Source of the DNA: a virus
IMG/VR virus record: IMGVR_UViG_3300032223_001446
Coordinates: 1-20,205 of that record
Strand: one strand, 5' to 3'
DNA: 20,205 nucleotides
This document shows, piece by piece, positions 1,264-19,815 of this stretch (positions are counted from its first letter, which is position 1; each line of letters begins with the position of its first letter). The translations under genes and the position numbers were made by a program. A model generated the notes under the pieces. That model made no database searches. It was not told the origin of the DNA and was given only the letters and a program-made list of their open reading frames with translations.

Positions 1264-1407
1264 CTAAAAAATAGTATCTAACACCAACGCACCATTCATA
1301 GCCGACAAAAAGAAATACACCCATGCCATTGTCGGTCGCCCTTCTTCCCATGCAACAGTAGCCATTGCCCACAGGAGAATACTCATCAAAGTGCAGACTA
1401 GTATCAT
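1264..1407 (-). CDS. very small membrane protein
   Basis: Encodes 47 residues (MILVCTLMSILL... ends VLDTIF). Its ATG at 1407 overlaps the TGA stop of the preceding gene (ATGA), so it is probably translationally coupled. It is hydrophobic, with two possible membrane segments separated by a short charged loop (WEEGRP). Coding potential is judged from the tight fit between neighbours and the membrane-like composition. An internal ATG at 1386 is an alternative start. Confidence 0.55.
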   Translation of the reverse strand: MILVCTLMSILLWAMATVAWEEGRPTMAWVYFFLSAMNGALVLDTIF

Positions 1408-1586
1408 CGTGGTGCTACAGGAACGCAACGATAACGTTCATTAGAAATACCCATTACCTTTGCGGCATCATTGCAACGCTCCTGAGTATAAAACGAGGCC
1501 AGATAACGCCAATCACGTGCTTGTACTAGCGATGCATTTTGACCAGACATAGCAACCACTGTATAAATCATTAATGCATAATTCAT
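1404..1586 (-). CDS. small protein with hydrophobic N-terminus and two cysteines
   Basis: Encodes 60 residues. It starts at ATG 1586 with GGAGG upstream and an ATGA overlap with the preceding gene. The N-terminal 15 residues are hydrophobic and could be a weak export signal; the C-terminal part has C38 and C54 (ERCNDAAKVM, YRCVPV). The pattern 'aromatic - x - C..A - ... - C near the end' recurs in the protein at 18226-18390. Function unknown. Confidence 0.7.
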   Translation of the reverse strand: MNYALMIYTVVAMSGQNASLVQARDWRYLASFYTQERCNDAAKVMGISNERYRCVPVAPR

Positions 1587-12423: not shown

Positions 12424-12619
12424 GAAAATACTCCATTGCTTTTAGTTTTGCTTCTCCAATACTGGTGGCTACAACTTTTACAAATGCTTTACCACCAGAT
12501 ATACTCATGTCATACGGAACAATACCATCAAACTGAAAATCTTCTGGTATGTCAACTTGCACCTCGAACTCGGTAAGATTCTTAATGCGATTCATTACTG
12601 CATCAAACTCGGTCGTCAC
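12404..12619 (-). CDS. hypothetical protein
   Basis: Encodes 71 residues if it starts at GTG 12619 (MTTEFDAVMNRIKNLTEF), which has GGAGGTG six bases upstream; the upstream ATG codons overlap the peptidase more and lack a ribosome site. Central beta segment (FEVQVDIPEDFQFDGIVPY) and C-terminal helix (IGEAKLKAMEYF). No family recognised. Confidence 0.74.
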   Translation of the reverse strand: MTTEFDAVMNRIKNLTEFEVQVDIPEDFQFDGIVPYDMSISGGKAFVKVVATSIGEAKLKAMEYFHGSKYE

Positions 12620-13538
12620 AATCAGCACCTCCATACATTCCATGATACATTATTCGCTTCACTGTGTCAACTCTTTGAGCGGTACTCTTTGCTCCCATCA
12701 CAACTATTACCTGATGATGCATTTCACTTTTAATCGGTTGTTCAACTAGAATAGCTACACAAAATCCTGCTGGATTAGTAAAACCTGTTTTACTCAATAA
12801 TATAGAATCAAATTCATGCAACAGGACTCTGTTAGTATTACTTATCACAACAGGCCAATCTTTGCGTTTGACTTGGATCAAAATAGTTGCTTCTTTTTTG
12901 GTAGAAATGTGTCTGATCATTGGATAGTATGCTGCACCAACAACTAAATGTGATACATCTTCTGCTGTGCTTACGTTACCCATATTCAAACCCGTCGGAT
13001 CATTGAAGTGTGTATTCTTTAATCCCATCGATGCTGCACGAAGATTCATATCATTGATGAATTTCACACGACCACCAGGATAATCTGCTGCAATAGTTTC
13101 TGCTGCTGCATTATCTGATTTGATTAGCATCGCATGAAATAATTGCCCACGTGTGTATTCATGCTTAGGTAAACGTGAACCTTCTCTGCTGCTTAACTTT
13201 AATACTTTATCGGTGTCGGTAGAATAATCTAATGCAACAATTGCTGTCATTAGTTTGGTGATACTTGCTAAACCACGAACCTTATCAACATTCTGCCCCT
13301 TGATAATAGCATCTTGTTCTAAATCAACGTGAATGTATGACATGCCATGCGTTTCAATAACACGCTGAACACGTGAATGTTTATGTGTATGACGAATTGG
13401 TTTTGCTTCTGCTGATTGTACAACCAATATGCATAATAAAATAACACAGACCAACATTTCAACAACGGTCATTTGTTTTGCATTGTACCAATTCTCTATC
13501 GCATATTGGATGTCTAATAGTTTGTTTTTTATGCTCAT
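12603..13538 (-). CDS. S11-family D-alanyl-D-alanine carboxypeptidase/endopeptidase
   Basis: Encodes 311 residues. The three motifs of penicillin-binding S11 peptidases are intact: SxxK (S92-I-T-K95), SxN (S141-D-N143) and KTG (K250-T-G252). A hydrophobic segment at about 25-42 ends in QSAEA and serves as signal peptide or anchor, placing the enzyme in the periplasm, where it would trim peptidoglycan peptides (PbpG/DacA-like). The first 24 residues precede the signal, so translation may start at M23. It is far from typical lysis genes, so cell-wall modification during infection is as likely as lysis. Confidence 0.9.
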   Translation of the reverse strand: MSIKNKLLDIQYAIENWYNAKQMTVVEMLVCVILLCILVVQSAEAKPIRHTHKHSRVQRVIETHGMSYIHVDLEQDAIIKGQNVDKVRGLASITKLMTAIVALDYSTDTDKVLKLSSREGSRLPKHEYTRGQLFHAMLIKSDNAAAETIAADYPGGRVKFINDMNLRAASMGLKNTHFNDPTGLNMGNVSTAEDVSHLVVGAAYYPMIRHISTKKEATILIQVKRKDWPVVISNTNRVLLHEFDSILLSKTGFTNPAGFCVAILVEQPIKSEMHHQVIVVMGAKSTAQRVDTVKRIMYHGMYGGADCDDRV

Positions 13539-13782: not shown

Positions 13783-14097
13783 CTACCATTTTTCAGCACG
13801 ATTCCATGTATAATCAAAATCGGCTGAGTAATCGGTAACATCGGGTATTCCTACCGCATAATCATCTACACCAATTTCTTCCCAATTTTCACCTTTGTTT
13901 AATGCTGTTGTTATACGTGATGACTTCTCACGTGTCGCAGCACCTTCTGGTGTCTGATGATACTCGGTAAGTTTTTGTGAACGAATTGCCTTGTCTGCTT
14001 CAGTATGAACACGAATATTGCCACATGAACGTGAACAATATGGTCCACGTTTACTGTGTGTTACTTTGCATGTCGGGCAAGTCTTTTGAATTGGCAT
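13783..14097 (-). CDS. zinc-finger protein
   Basis: Encodes 104 residues. The N-terminus 'KTCPTCKVTHSKRGPYCSRSCGN' region has two CxxC-type pairs (C7/C10 and C21/C25), a zinc finger of the type found beside homing nucleases and in phage DNA-binding proteins. The remainder is polar, with 'TALNKGENWEEIGVDDY' and a tryptophan-rich end. It overlaps the 3' end of the gmhA gene by 47 bases. Function unknown. Confidence 0.76.
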   Translation of the reverse strand: MPIQKTCPTCKVTHSKRGPYCSRSCGNIRVHTEADKAIRSQKLTEYHQTPEGAATREKSSRITTALNKGENWEEIGVDDYAVGIPDVTDYSADFDYTWNRAEKW

Positions 14098-14701
14098 TGT
14101 TTAAATCTTCCATCTTATGTTCTATGTATTCGCATAATAGATGACCTAAAATCAAATGCCCCTCTTGAATTTGTGGAGTTCTTGTTGATGGCACTGCAAT
14201 ATAATAATGTGCATACTCTTGCATGTATCTTGTTTTCATACCAGTGAATGCAATATTAACGCAACCTAAAGTTTTTCCAATCTTCATGGCTTCAATAATA
14301 TTTTCAGATGTTCCTGAAGTTGAAAGATAGATTGCTACATCTCCACGTTGTGCTATTGCTGATAGTTGACGAGAGAATATTTCTTTAAAGTTATAATCAT
14401 TACCAATCGCAGTGATTGCTGATGTATCTGTAGTCAATGACATCGCAGCATATGGTCTGCTTTGTGACATAAAATGCCCCACCAATTCTGCTGATAGATG
14501 CTGTGCTTCTGCTGCTGATCCACCATTACCCATGAAAATTATTTTGTTACCACGCTGTAATGCTTGATAACATGCTTGTGCAGCATTTCGTGTTTCGTCT
14601 AATGGTGCAGGTATTTTATGTGATGCAAATGTTTGTTCTTTATTCAAAAACAAATCGGATAGCATACGCTGAGTATTAATCAGTTTGTCCACGATATTCA
14701 T
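14051..14701 (-). CDS. gmhA: phosphoheptose isomerase
   Basis: Encodes 216 residues, a single SIS domain. 'FMGNGGSAAEAQHLSAELVG' (57-76) and 'STSGTSENI' (127-135) bind the sugar phosphate; H68, E72, Q179 and H187 occupy the zinc-site positions of bacterial GmhA. It converts sedoheptulose 7-phosphate to D-glycero-manno-heptose 7-phosphate, the first step to LPS core heptose. The C-terminal tail (NNANSKDLPDMQSNTQ) extends beyond the domain and overlaps the zinc-finger gene. The ATG follows AGGAATTATT. The phage may use it to alter LPS or sugar-phosphate pools. Confidence 0.9.
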   Translation of the reverse strand: MNIVDKLINTQRMLSDLFLNKEQTFASHKIPAPLDETRNAAQACYQALQRGNKIIFMGNGGSAAEAQHLSAELVGHFMSQSRPYAAMSLTTDTSAITAIGNDYNFKEIFSRQLSAIAQRGDVAIYLSTSGTSENIIEAMKIGKTLGCVNIAFTGMKTRYMQEYAHYYIAVPSTRTPQIQEGHLILGHLLCEYIEHKMEDLNNANSKDLPDMQSNTQ

Positions 14702-15790: not shown

Positions 15791-15948
15791 AGCGGTTCGT
15801 CATCATCCTCATTAAAATCTTCTTCATTCAAAATCAAATACTCTCCACAGAATGGGCAATGTGTAGGGTCTGATTCTGTATTCATTTCATTGTAAGAAAT
15901 GGTGAACTTTGAACTACATGCTGAACATTCATGCTTGAGATTAATCAT
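15787..15948 (-). CDS. zinc-ribbon protein
   Basis: Encodes 53 residues from ATG 15948 (MINLKHECSACSSKFTI...). CSAC and CPFC pairs form a zinc ribbon; the tail is acidic (NEEDFNEDDDEPL). This layout (short ribbon plus acidic tail) is common in T4-like phages. A longer frame upstream overlaps the nuclease gene and is not used. Target unknown. Confidence 0.78.
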   Translation of the reverse strand: MINLKHECSACSSKFTISYNEMNTESDPTHCPFCGEYLILNEEDFNEDDDEPL

Positions 15949-16759
15949 CTTTACCACACTTTGCTTTTTTAGATTTACCCAATGCACCCAAATCTGCTAC
16001 CCATATTTTTGGCTTTGCATTCTTATCTACACCTTTTGGTACAGGAAATGTAATGCCTGTGCGTTTCTCAACTTCTGCAATCGATACTTGACCCAATGCA
16101 ATATCAGTTGGTTGTGATTCTTTATGCTCGTAGATAAATGCTAGAGCTTCGTTTGTTTGTGTGTCGATAACAATCTTAAACAACGCAGTTGGTACAACCA
16201 CGTTACTTTTACCAATCTTTTTAGCCGTAGCAGTGTCATAGATGTCTCCTGGAATTACGATGAGTTTATGATTACGCTGTACTGCCCATGCACGGACAGT
16301 TGATTCTAATTGTTTCCACACACCACGATTTAGATTAGGCAATTGTGGTGACATGTTCGACATGAGAAAAGATTCCCATTCAACTTGTGTATTATATGAT
16401 TGGTCACCATCAGGTACGATATGCCCTTGATCGTAACCGGTGCCAGCATAATCGGTTGGTGAAGATTTCTTACCCAATGGCAACGAATTGTCTGCAACGA
16501 ATGCGTTAGTACGTGCTACACATCCAAGACCAGTTGTCGCATCAATAGAATACGATGACCATACTGGAATCTTTGCTTGATTGTCATGCATAGTCACATA
16601 ACCATTACGGCAAATAACTGTTGCATCTGCTTTGCTAACTGTGGGTAAACCATATGGTGCATGAACTGCACATTTATCAATAGATAGTGGTGCTTGTTGA
16701 TCCCATGCAAACGCATATTGTGCTACAAATAATAGAACTAAACTAATAATTTTTTTCAT
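15941..16759 (-). CDS. secreted DNA/RNA non-specific endonuclease
   Basis: Encodes 272 residues. Signal peptide MKKIISLVLLFVAQYAFA, then a NUC1/Serratia-nuclease domain with 'GYDQGHIVPDGD' (catalytic H113), 'FLMSNMSPQ' and 'NLNRGVWKQLE' (metal-binding N144, E152). The usual DRGH reads DQGH here. The enzyme would cut nucleic acid in the periplasm, where it could destroy DNA of competing phages or scavenge nucleotides. The ATG follows AAGGATTCAGT with an ATGA overlap. Confidence 0.88.
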   Translation of the reverse strand: MKKIISLVLLFVAQYAFAWDQQAPLSIDKCAVHAPYGLPTVSKADATVICRNGYVTMHDNQAKIPVWSSYSIDATTGLGCVARTNAFVADNSLPLGKKSSPTDYAGTGYDQGHIVPDGDQSYNTQVEWESFLMSNMSPQLPNLNRGVWKQLESTVRAWAVQRNHKLIVIPGDIYDTATAKKIGKSNVVVPTALFKIVIDTQTNEALAFIYEHKESQPTDIALGQVSIAEVEKRTGITFPVPKGVDKNAKPKIWVADLGALGKSKKAKCGKDD

Positions 16760-17223
16760 ACTGAATCCTTACATATTTGGTTGTATACATCATTTCTTGC
16801 AGTGAATGGTGTCAGCAACTCGACTGTATATGCTCCATATTCATGTGATGCTTTGAATATTAAATTCTCATTCACATCAACATACCACTCGAACAAAATA
16901 TACAGGTTTGCTTCATTACAATTCATAACTCCGTATGTATATATCTTGCTTACTTCCATCTTGATTGCTTCACTATAGTACGGTTTCTTGTATATGGTAG
17001 CAGCATGAAATTCATACATGGGTTGATTTGGATTTTTGAATATGCCTTTTTCTAGGTATAGTAACCAATCGGCCCTCTCTGCTCCGAGAACCCATTCTTG
17101 CTGTACAAAAGGAATTTTAACTACGCCGTTTTGTAATTCTACAAAAGGTAAACGATATGATTCTGATGCCTGTGCTGCAACTGCTATAAATGCTGCTACA
17201 ACTAAAAAGAATAGGCGTTTCAT
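16756..17223 (-). CDS. secreted protein, possible surface-adhesin E type
   Basis: Encodes 155 residues. Signal peptide MKRLFFLVVAAFIAVAAQA followed by a beta-rich domain with two cysteines (VMNCNEAN and NQICKDSV). Spacing and composition resemble surface-adhesin protein E-like proteins of Betaproteobacteria, but the similarity is weak. The ATG follows GGGAGTAATTCC. It is coupled to the secreted nuclease, so the two may act together in the periplasm; an inhibitor or partner role is speculation. Confidence 0.68.
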   Translation of the reverse strand: MKRLFFLVVAAFIAVAAQASESYRLPFVELQNGVVKIPFVQQEWVLGAERADWLLYLEKGIFKNPNQPMYEFHAATIYKKPYYSEAIKMEVSKIYTYGVMNCNEANLYILFEWYVDVNENLIFKASHEYGAYTVELLTPFTARNDVYNQICKDSV

Positions 17224-17248
17224 GGAATTACTCCCTCTAAACGCCTAT

Positions 17249-18244
17249 TTAGATAATGTCTACTAAATTATCTCTAAAGATAGACCAGCACTGTTCCCAT
17301 GTCCAGATGCTTGATGCCTGTTTAACTAATTTACGGTCCATCTGAAGGCAGACCATAATTGCTTTGTGTAGATTTTCATGCATATAACCGGTATATTCAT
17401 CAATCACGTCCAATGGTCCATCTACTGGATATGCTGCCACTGGTGTGCCTAAACTCATTGCCTCAATCATCACAATACCAAACGTATCTGATTTGCTTGG
17501 AAAACAAAATACATCGGCACGTGCATAACTATTGGCCAACTCTGAATCTTGCTGATAACCCAAAAACTTTACCTTAGGATATTTTTCTTCTAATTTCTTT
17601 CTATATGGACCATCACCAACAATCTCAATATCATAGGTGTCCTGCATCACGCACAATGCATCCAGATTCTTTTCTTTCGATACTCTACCAACATACAATA
17701 CAATAGGTCTTTCGCCATAATCATATCGTTTGGTCTGCTTTAGTTTTTCTCTATCAACACCTCTGGTCCATGTGACCATCGGACCACTGAATTCTTTACT
17801 TTCCAATTCTTTCTTCATTGATCTTGTATTGACCAATAATTTACCTGAATGCTTATGAAACCAACGAAGATATGCCCATGTAATAGGCATAGGAATATGG
17901 TAGATTGCTTTTAAAAACTCAGGAAATTTAGTATGGTAAGAAGTATTGTAACGATAACCCCGTTTGTCAAGATAAAGTCTAGCAAACAAACCAAGAGGAC
18001 CCTCGGTGGCGATGTGTATATAATCCGGAGATATCTCTTCAATCTTCTTGCCAATGCCCCACGGAAGGGCAAGTTTAACTTCAGAGTAGCCTGGGCAACT
18101 AAAATTGAAGAACTGAAGGGGAGTAAGGTATACACTATTATAACCATCCACAAGCGCATGTTCTTCCATGCTTTTGAACGTAACCACGACACCGTTAATT
18201 TGGTCTGGAACATTGTCTGTTATTATTAAGATTTTCTTTGACAT
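17249..18244 (-). CDS. GT4 glycosyltransferase, Agt-like (diacylglycerol glycosyltransferase)
   Basis: Encodes 331 residues, complete GT-B fold. N-terminal domain: 'ILIITDNVPDQINGVVVTF', 'PDYIHIATEGPLGLFARLY', 'YNTSYHTKFPEF'. C-terminal domain: 'IVLYVGRVSKEKNL', 'IVGDGPYRKKLE', 'SDTFGIVMIEAMSLGTPVAA', 'PVDGPLDVI'. These are the hallmarks of Agt-type enzymes that transfer glucose or glucuronate to diacylglycerol; the EX7E motif begins with D, as I recall for that group. It follows a PlcP-like phosphoesterase, the partner that makes diacylglycerol. Another sugar acceptor (LPS, teichoic-type) cannot be excluded. Confidence 0.85.
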   Translation of the reverse strand: MSKKILIITDNVPDQINGVVVTFKSMEEHALVDGYNSVYLTPLQFFNFSCPGYSEVKLALPWGIGKKIEEISPDYIHIATEGPLGLFARLYLDKRGYRYNTSYHTKFPEFLKAIYHIPMPITWAYLRWFHKHSGKLLVNTRSMKKELESKEFSGPMVTWTRGVDREKLKQTKRYDYGERPIVLYVGRVSKEKNLDALCVMQDTYDIEIVGDGPYRKKLEEKYPKVKFLGYQQDSELANSYARADVFCFPSKSDTFGIVMIEAMSLGTPVAAYPVDGPLDVIDEYTGYMHENLHKAIMVCLQMDRKLVKQASSIWTWEQCWSIFRDNLVDII

Positions 18245-18390
18245 GATGCCTCAATTTTAAAATTCTTAAACTTTACCCAATATGATAAACTAGATTTTGC
18301 CTGTTCACATGATTGTTGATCAGGAAACTCCATTGTCATTCTTGCAGGTTGATCACTAGGATCATTTAGATGAACTGCTATCAGTATCAT
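18226..18390 (-). CDS. small cysteine-containing protein between plcP-like and agt-like genes
   Basis: Encodes 54 residues (MILIAVHLNDPSDQPARMTM...EASCQRKS) from ATG 18390, overlapping the 3' end of the phosphoesterase by 29 bases and the 5' end of the glycosyltransferase by 19. 'MTMEFPDQQSCEQAK...F.IEASC' recalls small phage proteins with two cysteines, such as the one at 1404-1586. The ribosome site is weak. Function unknown. Confidence 0.62.
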   Translation of the reverse strand: MILIAVHLNDPSDQPARMTMEFPDQQSCEQAKSSLSYWVKFKNFKIEASCQRKS

Positions 18391-19150
18391 CAACCACATT
18401 GTCGCTCTCCCGTGTCCATGAGATTATTTCCCATCGTCCATCATGATGTTCAACTAATGCTGTGCATGATTCAACCCAATCACCATCATTCATATAAATT
18501 ACACCATCTATTTCTTTTATCTCTGCTTTGTGTATGTGACCACAAATAACACCATCATATCCTTTTTTCTTACAGTAACCAGCAAGATTCTTTTCAAACT
18601 GAAACATAAAATCTATGGCTCGTTTGACCTTTTGTTTAAGATATAGAGACAGACTCCAATAACCAAAGCCAAAGCGATGTCGTATCCAATTGAATAGAGA
18701 ATTGAGTGCAAGAACAAAATCATATGCTTTGTCTCCTAATATGGATAACCATGGTGCTAATCTTGTGATGCCATCAAATAGATCGCCGTGAGTAACAAGA
18801 TATTTTTTACCGTCTGCACCAATGTGTTCGCATTGATTTGTAATTTCTAACATACCAAAACCTAATCCATAATGCAGATAAGGTCTGAGGAATTCATCGT
18901 GATTACCTAGAACATAAACAACTTTTGTTCCACGTTTAGAATGGCCAAGAACGTTGCGTACCACATTTGTATGTGATTGTTTCCAACGCCATTTATTTTC
19001 TTTGATTTTCCATGCATCAATTATATCGCCAATTAGATATAATGATTCGCATGTATTATGCTTGAGGAAATTATTCAGATGCCCAGCCTTGCAATCTTTT
19101 GAACCAAGATGAACATCTGAAATAAAAATACTACGATAGGTTTTATCCAT
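18362..19150 (-). CDS. PlcP/LpxH-type metallophosphoesterase
   Basis: Encodes 262 residues. Calcineurin-like metal ligands are all present: D12-V-H14, D42 (GDIID), N83 (GNHDE), H121 (THGD), H205 and H207 (GHIH). The C-terminal 'GDWVESCTALVEHHDGRWEII' and 'SDVHLGSKDCKA' are closer, from memory, to PlcP, which removes head groups from phospholipids to give diacylglycerol, than to LpxH (UDP-diacylglucosamine pyrophosphatase). It lies just before an Agt-like glycosyltransferase, as in the bacterial plcP-agt operon. No clear ribosome site at ATG 19150. Annotation as LpxH homologue would be the usual automatic call. Confidence 0.87.
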   Translation of the reverse strand: MDKTYRSIFISDVHLGSKDCKAGHLNNFLKHNTCESLYLIGDIIDAWKIKENKWRWKQSHTNVVRNVLGHSKRGTKVVYVLGNHDEFLRPYLHYGLGFGMLEITNQCEHIGADGKKYLVTHGDLFDGITRLAPWLSILGDKAYDFVLALNSLFNWIRHRFGFGYWSLSLYLKQKVKRAIDFMFQFEKNLAGYCKKKGYDGVICGHIHKAEIKEIDGVIYMNDGDWVESCTALVEHHDGRWEIISWTRESDNVVDDTDSSSSK

Positions 19151-19157
19151 TATAGTT

Positions 19158-19194
19158 TCTGGTTACGGTTCCAGAGTCACCTTATCGTCGTGAC
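19158..19194 (-). promoter_or_regulatory. two short hairpins between OMP and phosphoesterase genes
   Basis: TCTGG/CCAGA (19158-19162/19171-19175) and GTCAC/GTGAC (19176-19180/19190-19194) lie side by side in the 56-nt gap. There is no T-run, so they are not obvious terminators; they may be RNA-processing or translation-control structures ahead of the phosphoesterase start. Confidence 0.35.
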
Positions 19195-19206
19195 CGATTT
19201 GTTTGA

Positions 19207-19815
19207 TTAGAAACTACGTGAGTATGAAATTGCTGTAGTATTATACTCAGAAGATAGTCCATCTTTAGCACGTTCTTGTGCATATGAAACTGTGATTGTG
19301 TCTACCGGTGTGAACTTATAGAACAAACCAATACGTGTTTCATCAGTATCATATTTTGTTGCTGTGCCATGATATGTGCTATCCCATGCTTGACGATGAC
19401 GCCAGTTCAACTTAGCACCAATTTGATCAGTAAGTTTAACAGTAGTTCCGATGTCGTAACGGTAGATTGGAAAACTTAGTGATGCTTTGTTTTTCTCACC
19501 TACTGCTAAACTAACATAAGGAGTAAAGATAGTACCAGTATCAAATGATTTGTTTCCACGCAGTTGATACAGACCTTCATCAGCATAACTACCAGAAGAA
19601 GGATTCTTTACCAATTCTTCTTCAACCAATGCTTCAACGGAGAAACCGTAACCAAGTTTTGTACCAATGGTCATTGATGTGACATTGTGAAATTCATTTG
19701 TTTTACTGTTGAGTTTGTCTTTTTGATCAAATCCAACGCTACCATACCAGTCACCTGCTTGTGCTGCACCTGCTACCAATAATGTGGCTACTGCCAAGAT
19801 TTTCGCTAACTTCAT
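19207..19815 (-). CDS. outer-membrane beta-barrel protein
   Basis: Encodes 202 residues. Signal peptide MKLAKILAVATLLVAGAAQA, then alternating amphipathic strands (for example GTIFTPYVSLAVGEKN, DETRIGLFYKFTPVDTITVSY) and a terminal phenylalanine (SYSRSF), the usual barrel-assembly signal. Length suggests an 8- to 10-strand barrel. Tailed phages rarely carry such genes; it may block receptors or change permeability of the infected host. The ATG follows AGGAGATGTAA. Confidence 0.84.
   Translation of the reverse strand: MKLAKILAVATLLVAGAAQAGDWYGSVGFDQKDKLNSKTNEFHNVTSMTIGTKLGYGFSVEALVEEELVKNPSSGSYADEGLYQLRGNKSFDTGTIFTPYVSLAVGEKNKASLSFPIYRYDIGTTVKLTDQIGAKLNWRHRQAWDSTYHGTATKYDTDETRIGLFYKFTPVDTITVSYAQERAKDGLSSEYNTTAISYSRSF

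Follow-up and report, generated by a model that had tools for sequence, protein, structure and literature searches.

The membrane is a major cellular pool of phosphate, and the non-phosphorus lipids of phosphate-poor waters are ascribed to bacteria and phytoplankton. Two enzyme families, PlcP and Agt, make up a bacterial lipid remodelling pathway, the exchange of phosphate-containing membrane lipids for sugar lipids, that has been described (PMC4796936, PMC8231724, PMC8528852, PMC9239053) and is represented in Sinorhizobium, Agrobacterium, Phaeobacter, SAR11 HTCC7211 and Pseudomonas aeruginosa (PA3219-PA3218). Agt1 makes glucosyl-diacylglycerol from UDP-glucose and diacylglycerol (DAG) (PMC8528852), and GTcp of SAR11 is a GT4 enzyme whose essential residues for catalysis and for donor and DAG binding are known, replacement of the catalytic Asp by Glu causing a loss of more than 90% of activity (PMC8231724). 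On the viral side, changes in host phospholipids during infection have been reported (PMC12282109), and cyanophages and pelagiphages carry pstS, which is also a phage-encoded answer to phosphate shortage. PstS serves uptake from outside, whereas the plcP-agt cassette described here, which sometimes lies in the same island, would act on the host's own phospholipids. Our literature search, which ran without most subscription journals and preprints, returned no report of a phage plcP-agt pair or of the small gene and RNA element that accompany it, in line with the original prediction that the pair is not known as a phage gene set.

The window, i.e., the whole 20,205-base IMG/VR virus fragment that was analyzed, carries a plcP-agt pair on its minus strand. 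The relevant features are as follows.

17246..19211, minus strand: the cassette, consisting of RNA element, plcP, small gene and agt in one conserved block
19155..19203, minus strand: structured RNA element of 49 nt with two hairpins and a pseudoknot
18362..19150, minus strand: PlcP-type metallophosphoesterase of 262 aa with an ATG start, a predicted phospholipase C giving diacylglycerol
18226..18399, minus strand: small gene of 57 aa, running from inside the phosphoesterase gene (3′ end) into the glycosyltransferase gene (5′ end)
17249..18244, minus strand: Agt-type GT4 glycosyltransferase of 331 aa with an ATG start, a predicted diacylglycerol glycosyltransferase
19207..19815, minus strand: predicted outer-membrane beta-barrel gene with a signal peptide, directly upstream; genomic context, not part of the conserved cassette

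Both enzyme ORFs are intact and follow each other on the minus strand in the order phosphoesterase, then glycosyltransferase. The original prediction of a calcineurin-type phosphoesterase with all metal ligands followed by an Agt-like GT4 enzyme was borne out by the Pfam domains (Metallophos, E 4e-10, for the former; Glycos_transf_1, E 4e-23, and Glyco_transf_4 for the latter) and by the ligands D12, H14, D42, N83, H121, H205 and H207 (DxH, GDxxD, GNHD, H, HxH), which are invariant in a 50-sequence alignment. As to the pair as a conserved feature, its order and intactness stood, but the 117-bp gap between the two genes holds a third, overlapping gene (18226-18399) that had been missed. Similarly, the predicted extent of 17249-19150 includes both genes, but the conserved block begins further upstream, at the RNA element (19155-19203). 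In comparison with the nearest relative, a 169.8-kb phage contig (G015), the block 17246-19211 aligned unbroken over 1966 bp with 88.6% identity while only scattered short pieces of the flanks aligned, at 72-85% identity; thus, the RNA element and the three genes travel, or are retained, together. The product of 19207..19815 matched OMP_b-brl weakly, at a score under the curated threshold. The phage locus has in common with the bacterial systems both enzyme families, the plcP-then-agt order, the catalytic and DAG-binding residues and a probable association with phosphate stress, and it differs from them in its compact cassette, the bridging 57-aa gene and the structured RNA in front. The viral plcP-agt sequences are, moreover, distinct from all bacterial ones found.

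The phosphoesterase showed 57% identity over 233 aa with P. aeruginosa PlcP PA3219, the P. aeruginosa match being taken as PA3219-PA3218 (PlcP and Agt1 of PMC8528852) from gene order and description. Identity with other bacterial PlcP proteins was 48-60%, the best match (60%) lying in Proteobacteria, versus 26% over 121 aa (half its length) with E. coli LpxH. LpxH, an enzyme of the lipid A pathway, shares the calcineurin-type fold and the metal ligands with the window enzyme, and an alternative reading of the locus is that it encodes an LpxH-like lipid A enzyme and an LPS or capsule glycosyltransferase that together modify the host lipopolysaccharide. Such proteins are publicly annotated as UDP-2,3-diacylglucosamine diphosphatase, a GmhA-like heptose isomerase is encoded elsewhere in the window, and the core of the AF2 model (mean pLDDT 79) has the LpxH type as its nearest solved fold (E 3e-11). 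This fold match is expected because LpxH is the sister family, and no sequence in the PDB is closer to the phosphoesterase than LpxH. The cap region of the model (residues 121-190) is weak, with a pLDDT of about 50-75, and therefore the lipid site cannot be judged from it. In contrast to the fold, the scores with the two NCBI LpxH models were far under threshold: the phosphoesterase reached 49 of the required 134 bits with the first and 37 of 190 with the second. When the first of these models was applied to 14 PlcP-bearing bacterial genomes, a true LpxH was found in 7 of them at 224-333 bits, and their PlcP-type proteins scored 37-57 bits. All seven of these LpxH proteins read GNRD where the window enzyme reads GNHD (N83-H84-D85), and LpxH acts on a different substrate. 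In the phosphoesterase tree, eight LpxH sequences formed a clade of their own, separated from every PlcP and every viral sequence at an SH-aLRT support of 100, and the window phosphoesterase fell on the same side as PA3219 and a PlcP-type protein of S. meliloti; the monophyly of the viral phosphoesterases had a support of just 77. Phylogeny and model scores thus agree with the original prediction that the enzyme is PlcP-like and not LpxH. Together, these data showed that, as judged by sequence, the phosphoesterase is a member of the PlcP family, and as such it would cleave phospholipid (PG, PE or PC) to DAG in a Mn-dependent reaction. No good PHROGs family was found for either the phosphoesterase or the glycosyltransferase.

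The glycosyltransferase showed 40% identity over 333 aa with P. aeruginosa Agt1 (PA3218). Phylogenetic analysis placed 38 viral glycosyltransferases in one clade (SH-aLRT 100) and separated these, together with plcP-adjacent bacterial glycosyltransferases and Agt1, from 19 other GT4 enzymes, WaaG, WaaB and MgtA-like proteins included, again with a support of 100; the enzyme had been predicted to be Agt-like and to stand away from LPS and capsule enzymes, and this is where it fell. Residues G18, G82, G85, H104, R161, R187, K192, D253, T254, F255, G256, E261 and W316 match the GTcp essentials (PMC8231724), the equivalences being placed by motif and alignment without the GTcp sequence itself. At the catalytic Asp position, most viral enzymes keep Asp, as does the window (D253), and Glu is found in 10 of the 38; the Glu-bearing viral Agt proteins may use a different donor or mechanism. 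These results showed, at the level of sequence family, an Agt member with conserved catalytic and acceptor residues, and the phage enzyme would be expected to synthesize glycosyl-DAG, its lipid substrate and sugar being predicted by analogy with that family. The reading as an LpxH function paired with an LPS or capsule glycosyltransferase was rejected on the LpxH model scores, the bacterial genome comparison and the two trees; the GNHD motif and the Agt synteny also speak against it, and we consider it very improbable. Conversely, the original reading as PlcP-Agt lipid remodelling is supported by both trees and by the same gene order as in the characterized P. aeruginosa pair PA3219-PA3218, although the substrates are those we infer.

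Relatives of each of the two genes were found in at least 595 stretches of IMG/VR, whereas the phosphoesterase occurs in just 5 of 50,697 INPHARED phage records, indicating that the phage group carrying it is nearly uncultured. In 144 distinct IMG/VR loci, the downstream neighbor of the phosphoesterase was an Agt-type GT4 in 100, a GT2 in 32, neither in 7 (i.e., no recognized glycosyltransferase within 1.5 kb of plcP) and a contig edge in 5. The replacement of GT4 by GT2 in roughly one phage locus in five sets these loci apart from the bacterial systems, where most of 80 loci have an Agt-like gene after plcP, and it fits a shared DAG product with an exchangeable sugar transfer; the seven loci lacking a glycosyltransferase imply that not every phage with plcP encodes the second step. 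The cultured Pelagibacter phage Mosig has a plcP-type gene, 51% identical and publicly annotated as UDP-2,3-diacylglucosamine hydrolase, which is divergent to an adjoining pstS and is followed by a small overlapping ORF. This ORF contains a hydrophobic segment and is unrelated in sequence to the 57-aa gene; no glycosyltransferase lies beside the Mosig plcP, and no RNA element was found in its locus.

The window is a 20-kb fragment, and such a fragment could in principle stem from cellular contamination or carry a passenger gene pair in decay that has no role in the phage. Against this, the T4-type capsid gene Gp23 is present in 15 of 31 long phosphoesterase-bearing records (69-525 kb), the viral glycosyltransferases form their own clade, and the reading frames have stayed intact at 50-90% identity in more than 100 phages, with a conserved small gene that is confined to viruses. 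The Gp23 of the window's closest relative has its nearest counterparts in pelagimyophages, cyanomyophages and Methylophilales phages (65-67%). Contamination was therefore rejected on the Gp23 co-occurrence, the separate viral clade and the intact frames, and contamination or decay is in our estimation extremely improbable. The gene pair is a real conserved feature of phages, far beyond chance. One very large, 524,565-bp virus record (G029) carries plcP twice, the copies being separated by about 100 kb, and three loci (L071, L109 and L146) gave matches to permuted and betaproteobacterial tmRNA models, a possible hint at the host.

Of 146 distinct viral loci, 120 gave a hit with the profile of the small gene that bridges the two enzymes, whereas 80 bacterial plcP loci gave none. 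The small gene is present in 79 of 100 loci with GT4, 29 of 32 with GT2 and all 7 without a glycosyltransferase, and therefore tracks plcP and not one kind of glycosyltransferase. The position of its ATG is kept in 118 of 121 cases, and in the part that overlaps neither neighbor the 120 pairs compared gave a pn/ps ratio of 0.38, with much smaller values among close pairs. These data showed that the small gene is real and under purifying selection. The protein has two invariant cysteines and is predicted by AF2 to adopt a beta-beta-alpha-beta arrangement (mean pLDDT 83); it gave no sequence-family match, and the best hit of a fold search had an E of 0.7. As a guess, it is perhaps a partner of PlcP. 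Elsewhere in the window, a 60-aa ORF (1404-1586, minus strand) with a hydrophobic start and two cysteines has a similar layout without being matched by the profile of the 57-aa gene, and is possibly a small protein of the same type.

The RNA element begins just past the stop codon of the upstream gene and ends 4 nt before the phosphoesterase ATG, and the window copy scored 59.8 bits (E 3e-11) with the covariance model. Across 36 copies, 98.1% of cells are paired in the two hairpins and the 3-bp pseudoknot, as opposed to at most 37.5% when the partner was slid as a control. Compensatory changes were counted in 80 cells versus 19.8 in shuffles, a contrast that kinship among the copies can inflate, and in the first hairpin four pairs each change on both sides. 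A conserved RNA structure is the simple reading of the slid controls and of these double-sided changes. The folding energy of single leaders is barely better than that of shuffles (z -0.4 to -1.1), so it is covariation and not energy that carries the case. The element had no match in Rfam 15 and was absent from bacterial plcP loci, and a blastn search of isolated phages gave chance matches alone. The glutamine riboswitches of the phages Melnitz and Mosig are likewise small structured RNAs of marine T4-type phages, but they are tied to tmRNA (PMC9004378), whereas the present RNA is tied to phosphate genes.

A scan of IMG/VR with the 17-base core of the RNA, made independently of plcP, recovered 67 distinct copies, of which 25 lie directly after pstS and 14 directly before plcP; 57 of the 67 have within 3 kb a gene of the phosphate set, a set that includes the OMP and GATase genes added after the context had been seen. 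In the 31 long phage records, which had been chosen for plcP, the covariance model found 20 copies, each of them no more than 3 kb from plcP or pstS (expected 1.5), bearing in mind that such loci also supplied the training copies of the model, which may favor near kin. The RNA element thus marks phage phosphate islands. A terminator-like T run follows 47 of the 67 copies, and in relatives the element also comes after OMP-type genes. Perhaps it controls, in cis, expression or the 3′ ends of transcripts, and it may be an attenuator, a riboswitch or a 3′ stabilizer. Further copies were noted at L071:10182-10231, L134:4991-5040 and L344:6041-6090, and in 8 of the 67 cases the element is directly followed by a gene for a GATase/BPL_N-like protein of 215 aa (e.g., L072:7631-8275).

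The genomic context of the relatives pointed to phosphate as well. A PstS-type binding protein is encoded in 13 of the 31 long phage records, and in 12 of these 13 pstS lies within 5.5 kb of plcP (expected 1.2); the window's own 20-kb fragment has no pstS. Some clusters run in the order plcP, small gene, GT2, pstS and phosphate-selective porin (Porin_O_P, E 2e-50), and a phage-encoded Porin_O_P beside pstS and plcP was seen at L071:8705-10183 and in 17 other viral loci. Of 134 viral loci, 44 have a Pho-box-like direct repeat within 100 bp before plcP (expected 0.5; examples are L042, L058 and L033). With a single exception among 28 non-redundant cases, the repeat lies between -36 and -59, hinting that the host PhoB drives these phage genes. 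No locus combined such a repeat with a strict RNA leader directly before plcP, and the window, in which no Pho box was found before plcP, is of the RNA type. The plcP-agt cassette of the relatives thus clusters with phosphate-uptake genes, and the presumed purpose of phosphate release, as originally proposed, gains independent support from the pstS, porin and Pho-box context. A bolder idea is that the RNA is a phosphate- or lipid-linked sensor or a transcript-control element peculiar to phage phosphate islands and that, with the 57-aa protein and PlcP-Agt, it forms a phage-made phosphate regulon replacing host PhoB control in many loci; we offer this tentatively, as a possibility that we ourselves rather doubt.

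The same lipid chemistry could also benefit the phage through a changed envelope, by superinfection exclusion, altered surface charge or help in lysis or assembly, and not through phosphate supply. In P. aeruginosa, the glycolipids of this pathway alter the tolerance of a cationic antimicrobial peptide, so membrane properties do change (PMC8528852), and an outer-membrane protein gene lies directly upstream of the window plcP. The clustering with pstS and the phosphate-selective porin, the Pho-box-like promoters of relatives and the tie of the RNA to the same phosphate genes argue against an envelope benefit, which we regard as unlikely. We therefore favor the reading of the window as a phage-borne phospholipid-to-glycolipid remodelling cassette of a phosphate island, which is very probably correct; activity, substrates and the fate of the phosphate are what we infer in it. 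The PlcP-type enzyme would split phospholipids of the host membrane, releasing a phosphorylated head group and leaving diacylglycerol, and the Agt-type enzyme would transfer sugar from a UDP-sugar onto the diacylglycerol to give a phosphate-free glycolipid, which would keep the membrane intact as the diacylglycerol product is removed. The freed phosphate would feed phage DNA and RNA synthesis in phosphate-poor aquatic hosts. That many aquatic T4-like phages carry the two enzymes in such a cassette, beside phosphate-uptake genes, points to the host membrane as a phosphate source that phages may exploit. If so, phages would be not just phosphate importers but also membrane miners that swap phospholipids for sugar lipids, and viral infection would be linked to the non-phosphorus lipids of phosphate-poor waters. 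To this are added a small gene specific to viruses and a structured RNA, hitherto undescribed, which pinpoints phosphate islands in phage genomes.

Several other genes of the window were noted, all on the minus strand. Directly after the cassette come a second signal-peptide protein (16756-17223) and an Endonuclease_NS nuclease with a signal peptide (15941-16759), which perhaps serve the scavenging of DNA-derived phosphate; in loci without a glycosyltransferase (L004, L005 and L009), plcP is likewise followed by relatives of one or both. Further along are a GmhA/DiaA-like SIS-domain protein (14051-14701), scoring 163 bits on the phosphoheptose isomerase model, which is below its cut-off, and a D-alanyl-D-alanine carboxypeptidase (12603-13538; Peptidase_S11, E 2e-37), here encoded by a phage.
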